Source of the DNA: Candidatus Woesearchaeota archaeon
GTDB taxonomy: Archaea > Nanobdellota > Nanobdellia > SCGC-AAA011-G17 > GW2011-AR20
Direction: 5' to 3'
Length of the DNA stretch: 40,596 bases
Assembly (NCBI GenBank): GCA_018303025.1
Contig: JAGVYZ010000020.1
Coordinates: 1-40,596, forward strand
The position numbers and the translations under genes are program-made. Below, in pieces: positions 37,210 to 40,596 of this stretch. The first letter of the stretch is position 1. The number at the start of each line of letters is the position of its first letter. The notes below the pieces were generated by a model, which was given only the letters and a program-made list of their open reading frames with translations, made no database searches and had not been told where the DNA came from.

Positions 37210-38694
37210 ATGCTAACCAATGTATTAATTGGAGGAAAAGCTGGACAGGGTCCTAATGTTTTAGCGAACATTATTTCTGAGATTTTAGTTAAAACAGGAT
37301 ACTATGTTTTTCTTTCAAGAGAATATGAATCAGTAATAAGAGGTGGACATAATTATAATATATTAACTTTCTCTGATACTAAAGTTTATAGCAATGAGAA
37401 TAAGATTGATATTTTAATTTGCCTGGATGATAATACTGAATTAGTTCATAAAAGCAAAATAAGAAAAGAGACACTTGTTTTGAGAAATAAAGACAATAAA
37501 GAGAATATTTATTTTGCCGGGAAATTATTAAAGATATTGGGTTTTGATTTTAAATTTTTGGAAATTGAAATTAAAAAATTAAGGAATTTCGATGCTAATT
37601 TGAAAAATGCAAAAGAAGGTTATGAAAGCGAAAATTCTAAATTTAACTTAAAAACTTCTAAGAATAAAACTAATTATTTCATGAATGGCGCTCAGGGTGT
37701 AAAAGAAGGTGCTTTGAAGGGTGGAATGGATGTTTATTTTGCTTATCCAATGACACCAGCTACTTCTCTTTTATCTGAACTAGCTGAGAAACAAGTTGAG
37801 AATAATATTTTAACATTAGAATTGGAAAATGAGATTGCTGTTTTTAATGCTGCTATTGGAAGTGCTATTACTGGTGCTAAATCAATGGTTGGAACTTCTG
37901 GCGGCGGATTTGATTTAATGACAGAAGCTTTAAGTTTAGCTGGTATTGGAGAAATTCCTGTTGTTGCTTATTTAGCTCAAAGACCAGGACCTGCTACTGG
38001 TGTTGCTACTAAAACAGCTCAGGGTGACTTGAATATTGCTTTATATTCTGGGCATGGTGAATTTTCAAGAGTTGTTGTTGCTCCTGGCGACCCAATAGAA
38101 AGTGCTGAATTAACTTCTGCTTTGTTTTATTTATCCCAGAAATTTAAAATTCCCTGTTTGATATTATCTGACAAGCAATTAGCTGAAAGCTTTTACACAT
38201 TAAACGGGAAAGCTAATATTGTGAAATCTGAAAAATTAACTTCTTTGAAAAGATACAATAGCTATGAACATCTTGATTCTGGGGAAGCTACTGAAGATAC
38301 TGCAATTGTTGAAAAAAATGTTGAAAGAAGATTAATGAAGGCTAATGAAATAAAAAGAGAAGTTGAGAAATTAGAAACTTGCAAGGTTTATGGAAAAGGA
38401 AAAACTTTAATTGTTGGATGGGGTTCTACTAAAGGCGCTATTTTTGATGCTATACAAGGATTAGATGCAAGATTTTTACAAGTACTTTATTTAGAACCAT
38501 TTTCTGATAAAATAGTTGCTGAATTAAAAAAAGCTGATAATATAATTGTTGTTGAAAATAATGCAACTGCCCAGTTGGCTAATTTGATTACTGCTAAGAC
38601 TGGAATTTTTATTAAAAATAAAATTTTGAAATACAATGGACTGCCTTTTTACTCTGATGAGCTAAAAGAAGAGATAAAGAAGAGGATGAAATGA
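37210..38694 (+). CDS. 2-oxoacid:ferredoxin oxidoreductase, fused gamma-alpha subunit
   Basis: 494 residues. The gamma domain (about 1-150) opens LTNVLIGGKAGQGPNVLANI and has the YESVIRGGHNYNILTFSD loop. The alpha domain starts near MNGAQGVKEGALKGGMDVYF with AYPMTPATSLLSELAE, the region near the thiamine site, then GTSGGGFDLMTEALSLAGIG and YLAQRPGPATGVATKTAQGD. It is shorter than the usual 560-600 residues because the gamma part is compact. With the beta subunit it oxidises a 2-oxoacid to an acyl-CoA and reduces ferredoxin. Wording fits the KorAB/OFOR group rather than four-subunit POR; the substrate is not fixed. It overlaps the regulator gene by four bases. Confidence 0.93.
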   Translation: MLTNVLIGGKAGQGPNVLANIISEILVKTGYYVFLSREYESVIRGGHNYNILTFSDTKVYSNENKIDILICLDDNTELVHKSKIRKETLVLRNKDNKENIYFAGKLLKILGFDFKFLEIEIKKLRNFDANLKNAKEGYESENSKFNLKTSKNKTNYFMNGAQGVKEGALKGGMDVYFAYPMTPATSLLSELAEKQVENNILTLELENEIAVFNAAIGSAITGAKSMVGTSGGGFDLMTEALSLAGIGEIPVVAYLAQRPGPATGVATKTAQGDLNIALYSGHGEFSRVVVAPGDPIESAELTSALFYLSQKFKIPCLILSDKQLAESFYTLNGKANIVKSEKLTSLKRYNSYEHLDSGEATEDTAIVEKNVERRLMKANEIKREVEKLETCKVYGKGKTLIVGWGSTKGAIFDAIQGLDARFLQVLYLEPFSDKIVAELKKADNIIVVENNATAQLANLITAKTGIFIKNKILKYNGLPFYSDELKEEIKKRMK

Positions 38695-38945
38695 TAACTA
38701 AGGAAGACTTTGAGATATTACATTGGGTAGAATTTATGAATTATAATGATCCAAAAAAATTGTCACAACAAATGGGTCTATCAGAAAAAGAAGCTGAAAT
38801 AAAAATGAAAGAGCTTGAAAAAAATGAGTTAATCATAAGAGAATGCCGCTTTGGAAAACTTTATGGTTATAAATTAACAGAAAAAGGGCTAAAAATTTGG
38901 AATGCTAAAAGATATTTAAACTGGAAATTGGGATTAGGATATTAA
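38691..38945 (+). CDS. Winged-helix regulator inserted between OFOR subunits
   Basis: 84 residues: EILHWVEFMNYNDPKKLSQQ, then MGLSEKEAEIKMKELEKNEL and FGKLYGYKLTEKGLKIW give a compact winged helix with recognition helix and wing. It has no metal or ligand domain. It is coupled by ATGA to the alpha gene and followed after one base by the beta gene, so it is made together with the enzyme. This placement suggests feedback control of the operon, or a small accessory subunit of the complex. Direct DNA binding is inference from the fold. Confidence 0.75.
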   Translation: MITKEDFEILHWVEFMNYNDPKKLSQQMGLSEKEAEIKMKELEKNELIIRECRFGKLYGYKLTEKGLKIWNAKRYLNWKLGLGY

Positions 38946-38946
38946 A

Positions 38947-39783
38947 ATGGAAAATTTAAATACAATGATTAAACCAACATGGTGTCCTGGATGCTTTAAT
39001 TTTCAAATACTTACTGGGGTAAAAAATGTAGTCTTTAATGAACTCAATTCTGGGAAAAAGAGGGATGAATTTGCAATTGTTTCTGGAATTGGATGTCATG
39101 CAAAGATATTTGATTATCTGAATATAAACGGAATCAATACTTTGCATGGCAGAGTTCTGCCTACTTGCTTTGGAATAAAAATAGGGAATCCTAATCTGAA
39201 AGTCATTGGATTTTCTGGTGATGGTGATGCATATGCAGAAGGAATGGAACATTTAGTTCATATGGCAAGGTATAATGTTGACATGAAATATATTATTCAT
39301 GACAATCAGGTATTTGCTTTAACTACTGGACAATCTACACCTACAACTGAAATTGGATTTAAAGATAAGACTAATCCTTTAGGCGCTAAACTGAATCCAT
39401 TAAATCCAATTAAATTAATGTTATCTTTAAATGTTGGATTTGTAGCTAGGGTATTTGCTGATGTGAAATCTGTTGAAGATGTATTAAAAGAAGCTTTGAA
39501 ATATAAAGGATTTGCATTTATTGAAGTAATACAGCCTTGTCTGATATTTCACCAGGATACTGGTTTTAAAGAAAGGATATATTCTTTGCAGGAAGCTAAG
39601 CATGATAAGACTAATATTACTGAAGCTTTGAAAAAAGCTGAAGAATTTGATTATAATGATTCTAAAAGCAAGATTCCAACTGGAATATTCTACCAGAAAG
39701 AAAGAGAGATTTTTGAAGACAAGTTTGAACAATTAAAGAAATTAAAAGATAAGAAAATGTCCTGGAAGGATATTAAAAGATGA
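38947..39783 (+). CDS. 2-oxoacid:ferredoxin oxidoreductase, beta subunit
   Basis: 278 residues. WCPGC near residue 12, IGCH near 50 and VIQPCLIF near 198 supply the four cysteines of the [4Fe-4S] cluster found in KorB-type subunits. The thiamine diphosphate motif is GDGDAYAEGMEHLVHMARYN, ending in NQVFALTTGQSTPTT. TCFGIKIGNPNLKVIGFSGD precedes it, as in the family. It binds thiamine diphosphate and passes electrons to ferredoxin. The gene runs directly into the hydrogenase-like gene: the stop at 39781-39783 is followed at once by that ATG. Confidence 0.95.
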   Translation: MENLNTMIKPTWCPGCFNFQILTGVKNVVFNELNSGKKRDEFAIVSGIGCHAKIFDYLNINGINTLHGRVLPTCFGIKIGNPNLKVIGFSGDGDAYAEGMEHLVHMARYNVDMKYIIHDNQVFALTTGQSTPTTEIGFKDKTNPLGAKLNPLNPIKLMLSLNVGFVARVFADVKSVEDVLKEALKYKGFAFIEVIQPCLIFHQDTGFKERIYSLQEAKHDKTNITEALKKAEEFDYNDSKSKIPTGIFYQKEREIFEDKFEQLKKLKDKKMSWKDIKR

Positions 39784-40596
39784 ATGACAAGAATTTAGAC
39801 TTAAATTCTTTAAAAAATGAAAAATTAATTGCTCTTCTTGCTCCTTCTTTTGCTGTAATGTTTGATTATCCTGAAATAATATTAAAGTTGCGTAAACTTG
39901 GATTTGATAAAGTTGTTGAATTAACTTTTGGCGCTAAACTTGTTAATCATGAATATCATAAGATTCTGAAAAATTCTAAAAAATTATTAATTTCTACTGT
40001 TTGCCCTGGTGTTGTTGAGACTATTAAAAATAAATATCCTAAATTTATTAAAAACTTGATTTCTGTTGATAGTCCAATGGTTGCTACTGCTAAAATATGC
40101 AAAAGAGTTTATCCTAATCATAAAACCTGCTTTATTTCACCTTGCACTTTTAAGAAAATAGAAGCAAGAAATTCTGATTATGTTGATTATGTTATTGATT
40201 ATATGGAACTTGCTAAATTAGTTTCTAATATTTCTGTTAAAGGAAAGGATAATTTTGACATGTTTTACAATGAATATACTAAAGTTTATCCATTATCAGG
40301 AGGGCTATCTAAAACAGCTCATTTGAAAGGAATAATTAAACCTGGGGAAGAGATATGCATTGATGGAATTGTAAACATAATTAAATTTTTAGAAAATCCT
40401 GATCCTAAAGTAAGATTTATGGATGTTACTTTTTGCGTTGGAGGTTGTATTGGCGGACCTTTTGTAAACTCTAATCTGGATATTGAAGGAAGAAAGAAAA
40501 GAATTTTAGATTATACAAAAAAATCTTCTGCTCTTGATATTCCTAAAGAAAGTAAAGGCATTTTAGAAGTTGCAAAAGGAATAAAATTTAAGACGA
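39784..40596 (+). CDS. Minimal [FeFe]-hydrogenase-like H-cluster protein (3' end outside window)
   Basis: Absent from the ORF track because it runs off the end; 271 codons are open. There is no N-terminal ferredoxin domain: the protein starts directly in the H-domain (LIALLAPSFAVMFDYPEIIL; GFDKVVELTFGAKLV). The three H-cluster motifs are L1 ISTVCPGVV (C75), L2 SPCTFKKIEA (C122, with K125 and E128 in the usual places) and L3 FMDVTFCVGGCIGGP (C219, C223). All four cluster-binding cysteines are therefore present. The usual TSCCPxW reads TVCP here, so the proton-relay cysteine is valine, and the methionine before the L3 cysteine is threonine. It directly abuts the OFOR beta gene. It could be an H2 enzyme with altered proton transfer or an H2/redox sensor. 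Confidence 0.88.

Follow-up and report, generated by a model that had tools for sequence, protein, structure and literature searches.

A minimal [FeFe]-hydrogenase-type protein in an oxoacid oxidoreductase operon, and a membrane protein that co-occurs with hydrogenases in DPANN archaea and Patescibacteria

The locus and its hydrogenase-type gene

The window, that is the whole stretch of 40,596 nucleotides analyzed here, closes with a 2-oxoacid:ferredoxin oxidoreductase (OFOR) operon and a hydrogenase-type gene on the forward strand. A fused gamma-alpha OFOR subunit of 494 amino acids is encoded at 37210..38694 (+) and was recognized by PF01558 and PF01855 as well as, below the cut-off, by TIGR03710 (426.7 bits). 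The OFOR beta subunit, 278 amino acids long with matches to PF02775 and PFO_beta_C, follows at 38947..39783 (+); its GDG TPP motif and four cysteines (Cys13, Cys16, Cys50 and Cys198) are invariant in 11 operon homologs. Between the two subunits lies an ORF of 84 amino acids (38691..38945 (+)) that is winged-helix-like, with a weak Rio2_N match below the cut-off. None of the other operons showed a recognizable counterpart of this ORF; acetyltransferase-like genes occupy its place in some of them.

The hydrogenase-type ORF occupies 39780..40596 (+). It starts with the ATG at 39780, rather than at 39784 as given in the earlier note, overlaps the OFOR beta stop by 4 nt and runs to the last base of the contig (G000:C39), where the gene is cut. 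The 272 amino acids encoded up to this point matched PF02906 with residues 15-227, covering model positions 2-245 of 245 (E = 1.6e-38), indicating a complete H-domain. A complete ortholog of the same family in genome G003 comprises 282 amino acids and ends in ..KGINFRRNY, compared with ..KGIKFKT at the contig end of the window, so the window protein is short of just a few C-terminal residues. The concern that the missing tail might take part of the H-domain with it was thus dispelled. AlphaFold2 modeling with 20 relatives yielded a pLDDT of 88 and a pTM of 0.88, and Foldseek matched the model to T. maritima HydA, T. kivui HydA, CbA5H and CpI, with E values as low as 4e-17 and a TM (query) of 0.71-0.79. 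The predicted fold is in agreement with active hydrogenases.

We also considered the Nar1/IOP1-like proteins, a placement with which would have spoken against a hydrogenase. No Fe_hyd_SSU domain was detected, PF02906 being the sole domain found, and the complete ortholog ends directly after the H-domain (the tree described below contains no Nar1). Instead, group B and A profiles scored best. The top NCBIfam score came from the group B model TIGR04105 at 121 bits, far from its cut-off of 450; the group B references, however, keep Cys299, Met497 and Fe-S domains, and one of them (L148) has HydE/HydG genes alongside, unlike the window. Judged by its sequence, the window protein is a minimal [FeFe]-hydrogenase-type H-domain, as had been proposed, with a putative [2Fe]-containing H-cluster and putative H2 turnover.

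Distribution and active site of the minimal clade

Scanning 371 genomes of the window's phylum with PF02906 returned matches in 54. These fall into two main classes, HydA-like proteins of mostly about 560-620 amino acids scoring about 300 bits and minimal proteins of about 270-310 amino acids scoring 110-145 bits (19 genomes), plus one form of 352 amino acids with an N-terminal ferredoxin domain. An alignment-based scan of named genomes recovered 80 loci, while a single-protein query of the same contigs recovered none. The archaeal hosts are Pacearchaeota, Woesearchaeota, Nanoarchaeota, Aenigmatarchaeota and Diapherotrites/Forterrea; the loci also, unexpectedly, included Patescibacteria, namely Dojkabacteria/WS6, Peregrinibacteria, Roizmanbacteria, Levybacteria, SR1 and Gracilibacteria. 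In an IQ-TREE phylogeny built with a small set of references, drawn from groups A and B, HydS-type (R. albus) and DRTGG-linked sequences (the latter assigned here as group D-like) and none from groups E-G, the 74 minimal rows formed one clade (support 99/100). The window lies inside a 37-row DPANN clade (100/99), and HydS-type sequences are the sister of the minimal clade with weak support (91/44). On this phylogeny, the ~280-aa hydrogenases of DPANN archaea and Patescibacteria are a single well-supported clade apart from the sampled groups A-D.

Several members deviate from the common form. Two relatives of 352-353 amino acids, L052 (G062) and L136 (G419), carry an N-terminal ferredoxin-like domain with two CxxCxxC-type motifs and branch inside the clade. 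Under table 11, the minimal hydrogenase frames in L118, L125 and L130 (SR1, Gracilibacteria and uncultured) appear disrupted, which probably reflects the reading of TGA as glycine in such bacteria; the tree was built without these rows. Full-length group-A-like HydA was found in G319 and G359 (family f60) and in G041 (L002), whose groups are otherwise minimal-type or hydrogenase-free, which suggests replacement or transfer between hydrogenase types.

We take the window's clade to be, probably, that of the published DPANN 'ultraminimal' hydrogenases. As described, these share with the window protein the restriction to an H-domain, a length below 300 amino acids, the occurrence in DPANN genomes and the retained H-cluster cysteines; the window protein measures 272 amino acids and has relatives in Pacearchaeota, Woesearchaeota and Nanoarchaeota. 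In work of Greening et al. from 2024, a DPANN ultraminimal enzyme reportedly binds the H-cluster and makes H2.

All residues named in the earlier note (C75, C122, C219, C223, K125, E128, Val74 and Thr217) were found in the sequence as claimed. Val74, at the position of CpI Cys299, and Cys75 (CpI Cys300) are encoded at 39999..40004 (+); the stretch from Cys122 to Glu128 with Lys125 (CpI Cys355, Lys358 and Glu361) at 40143..40163 (+); and that from Asp215 (CpI Glu495) over Thr217 (CpI Met497) to the ligands Cys219 and Cys223 at 40422..40448 (+). In the clade alignment, the H-cluster ligands C75, C122 and C219 are present in 74/74 rows and C223 in all 73 rows with a letter there. Residues of the [2Fe] pocket, the equivalents of CpI Lys358, Glu361, Pro231, Ser323 and Pro324, are likewise invariant (74/74). 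The CpI Cys299 column, in turn, holds P32, V24, T10, A5 and N3 and not a single Cys among the 74 rows; loss of the relay cysteine is therefore a property of the family. A valine-specific adaptation at position 74 was rejected, as the column is free. The group A signature Cys299, Met353 and Met497 (CpI numbering) is replaced by Val74, Ser120 and Thr217 in the window, with S/G/A/T across the clade at the second position and L/N/T at the third, and CpI Gln325 corresponds to Met100 (M/V/L across the clade).

This set of variants had been regarded as special, potentially marking a distinct subtype together with the operon. A clade distinct from the sampled groups A-D was borne out. The variants, in contrast, are not particular to this gene, as all 74 rows go without the cysteine, and Ala/Ser at such sites is already known from TmHydS and TamHydS. 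In TmHydS, which is active and binds the H-cluster, Cys299 is replaced by Ala and Met497 by Ser (PMC10055695). In TamHydS, Ala, Ser and Leu stand in for Cys299, Met353 and Met497 or their counterparts (PMC11803613). Both bind the H-cluster and turn over in spite of the missing relay cysteine (PMC10055695, PMC11803613). The characterized proteins of groups C and D resemble the window protein in this position, in Ser/Gly and Leu/Ser at the methionine positions and in the implied alternative proton path (PMC10055695, PMC10407848, PMC11803613). They differ in having their own N-terminal Fe-S clusters and C-terminal extensions, whereas the window protein is an H-domain only, and they belong to a separate clade.

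With the canonical cysteine absent, the hydrogenase would need another proton route, in line with the idea of a catalyst using a different path. The published alternative of group D is also missing from the clade: the TamHydS relay positions Glu252 and Glu289 are Leu176 and Asp215 in the window, the former being Leu/Val/Met across the clade. Asp occupies the CpI Glu495 position in 74/74 clade rows, compared with Glu in all references, and Tyr (Tyr170 in the window) the CpI Phe417 position in 72 rows. We regard the invariant Asp215 and the near-invariant Tyr170 as the leading candidates for components of the alternative route.

The OFOR operon, absent maturases and a co-occurring membrane protein

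The operon context, another element of the earlier note, held up across the clade. OFOR gamma-alpha and beta genes lie upstream of the hydrogenase, in equal order and direction and within a few kb, in 16 of the 37 rows of the window's clade (the window and 15 named members), about 10 of these with direct adjacency; over half of the 37 rows have no adjacent OFOR. An AMP-forming acetyl-CoA synthetase is located near the operon in five members, and the Patescibacteria L103, L109 and L115 carry genes for an ADP-forming acetate-CoA ligase and OFOR 1-5 kb from the minimal hydrogenase. At the genome level, OFOR-beta was detected in 18/19 minimal-bearing versus 96/352 other genomes of the phylum at a threshold of 1e-40; these operons themselves supplied the sequences of the profile, which biases the count. 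Group B hydrogenases in Bacteroides re-oxidize ferredoxin from pyruvate:ferredoxin oxidoreductase (PMC12578642). The simplest reading of the gene content is a comparable fermentation module that would convert a 2-oxoacid to acyl-CoA, CO2 and H2, with ATP gained from acyl-CoA.

Since the operon is real and recurrent, such an H2-evolving module is likelier than the sensor that had been offered as an alternative. An H2 sensor or regulator akin to the group C/D HydS proteins could draw on active-site substitutions that parallel those of TmHydS/TamHydS and on the weakly supported sister position of HydS-type sequences. But neither the window protein nor the complete G003 ortholog contains a PAS, kinase, phosphatase or other C-terminal domain, the neighboring genes are metabolic, with an OFOR operon in place of signaling genes, and Leu takes the place of the group D relay Glu252 in the window protein. 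We therefore consider a sensory role very unlikely.

[FeFe]-hydrogenase is considered to depend strictly on HydE, HydF and HydG. The earlier note had proposed to look for their genes elsewhere in the genome, and this search came back negative: HydG was not found in the window's own genome, a MAG of 87.5% completeness, and HydF and HydE stayed below the cut-off. HydG was also not found in any of 20 surveyed minimal-type genomes, the window's own and the ferredoxin-fused G062 included, nor in 32 of 33 further minimal-bearing genomes, among them the complete Ca. Forterrea chromosome, adding up to 52/53 genomes without HydG. HydF and HydE exceeded the cut-off in none of those 20 minimal-type genomes. 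The positive controls G087 and G126 contain HydE/F/G side by side; they were also the only 2 of 18 tested canonical-HydA genomes with a full-length HydF-like match. G419 is the only surveyed genome that combines HydG with a member of the minimal clade. A single absence is weak evidence at 87.5% completeness; the pattern across 53 genomes is not. This negative result led on to the question of cofactor acquisition and to a membrane partner.

Many minimal hydrogenases without an adjacent OFOR are adjoined by a polytopic protein of ~180 amino acids, whose predicted helices or helix ends hold invariant K, N and Q residues. No Pfam or NCBIfam family covers it, and neither a PDB sequence search nor a plasmid search gave a match of note; no description turned up in the literature searched, the main 2024 ultraminimal-hydrogenase paper lying outside that search. 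Among the 371 genomes of the phylum, 29 from 22 families carry the protein, and all 29 encode a hydrogenase (background 54/371; Fisher p 1.4e-28, kinship ignored). A Patescibacteria draw gave the same picture, with 24 occurrences in 333 genomes, 24/24 alongside a hydrogenase (background 36/333; Fisher p 5e-28, kinship ignored). The membrane protein adjoins minimal genes at 26 loci (a few being the same locus fetched twice) and lies directly beside canonical HydABC operons at L174-L177, L180 and L183. In its own tree, labels of both hydrogenase types are intermixed, and the copy of the window's genome groups with copies from HydABC genomes at modest support (89/88). As the partner accompanies the hydrogenase whatever its electron partner, it most likely serves the H-cluster.

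The copy in the window's own genome is located at G000:C54:14905-15423 (L173:8900-9427) (-), unlinked to the hydrogenase and beside a small membrane protein gene. Mis-binning of this contig is unlikely, as its tetranucleotide usage correlates with that of the window at 0.991. On the same locus, L173:11638-13953 (-) encodes a 772-aa carboxylate-amine-ligase/PurD-like protein with an apparent intein-like insert (starting ..CYSSDTEVLTDKGW..). AlphaFold2 predicted the membrane protein as mostly helical with six long helices (pLDDT 91), and the top Foldseek matches were the ECF S components ThiT and RibU (probability 0.89-0.99; TM 0.45-0.66 for most). Length, helical content and helix number are like those of S components, a resemblance that is tentative at E values of 0.35-2.5 and with neither a family nor a meaningful PDB sequence match. 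We propose that it helps cells acquire the H-cluster cofactor or a precursor. Counting against uptake, G087 and G419 possess both HydG and the membrane protein, and in families f60/f8 neither was found. At many f60/f8 minimal loci, an EamA transporter is the convergent 3' neighbor, never sharing a locus with the ~180-aa protein. Its gap to the hydrogenase ranges from -16 to +19 nt (L034, L035, L038, L043, L044, L062, L063, L065-L067, L076, L079, L083 and L086), and it also occurs where OFOR is not adjacent.

Missing maturases could also mean that [2Fe] is never inserted, which counts against an H2-evolving enzyme. The protein might then act with its [4Fe-4S] cluster only, for instance by accepting electrons from OFOR or by standing in for a ferredoxin, in a reduced role like that of Nar1. 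The absence of HydG from 52/53 genomes and the loss of the relay cysteine, both methionines and Gln325 would fit such a role. Hard to explain without a [2Fe] site, however, are the invariant equivalents of Lys358, Glu361, Pro231, Ser323 and Pro324, and the strict tie of the membrane protein to both hydrogenase types as well as the ultraminimal DPANN enzyme said to bind the H-cluster and produce H2 argue in the same direction, leaving a [4Fe-4S]-only function improbable. We judge it similarly unlikely that the hydrogenase evolves H2 after maturation inside the cell by unrecognized HydE/F/G substitutes, with the membrane protein having another role such as anchoring or ion or small-molecule exchange. 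In favor of this explanation, HydF is likewise missing from most of the phylum's canonical-HydA genomes, and the f60/f8 genomes have neither HydG nor the membrane protein, but no candidate enzymes recur beside the hydrogenase, where the recurrent neighbors are OFOR, acyl-CoA synthetases and membrane proteins.

Proposed mechanism and meaning

The best explanation as a whole, to which we assign moderate confidence, is that an H-domain-only hydrogenase works with OFOR, uses a proton route other than Cys299 and obtains its cofactor from neighboring cells. We infer H2 evolution, the paths of electrons and protons, and cofactor uptake as follows. OFOR would oxidize a 2-oxoacid to acyl-CoA and CO2, and low-potential electrons would pass from the [4Fe-4S] cluster of its beta subunit, directly or via a small ferredoxin, to the [4Fe-4S]H cluster of the hydrogenase, which would reduce protons to H2. 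The protons would reach the site without the Cys299 relay, with Asp215 and Tyr170 as candidate parts of their route. Having no [2Fe] subcluster built by HydE/F/G, the cell would take up the cofactor or a precursor from its neighbors, probably through the S-component-like membrane protein and, in related clades, possibly through the EamA transporter. Synthetic [2Fe]adt in the medium gives rise to active hydrogenase inside living cells without HydEFG (PMC6984386), so such uptake is chemically possible. More tentatively, tiny symbiont-type archaea and bacteria might use an organometallic cluster like a vitamin: instead of making the H-cluster cofactor, they would salvage it, or a late [2Fe] precursor, from neighbors via a dedicated importer resembling S components. 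If true, salvage would account for the [FeFe]-hydrogenases that occur without HydEFG, and hydrogenase production in other hosts could benefit from a [2Fe] importer.

The window protein probably adds a member to the minimal DPANN hydrogenases. The present analysis yielded the extension of the clade to Patescibacteria, the OFOR module, the absence of HydG from nearly all minimal-bearing genomes and the strict membrane partner. The OFOR operon represents a very small natural 2-oxoacid-to-H2 module, its H2 step being putative. Hydrogenases without HydE/F/G in two domains of life, tied to one undescribed membrane family, turn the H-cluster source in DPANN and Patescibacteria into a testable question. 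If the cofactor is imported, organometallic cofactors would be shared goods of microbial communities, and H2 production by these symbionts would depend on their partners.
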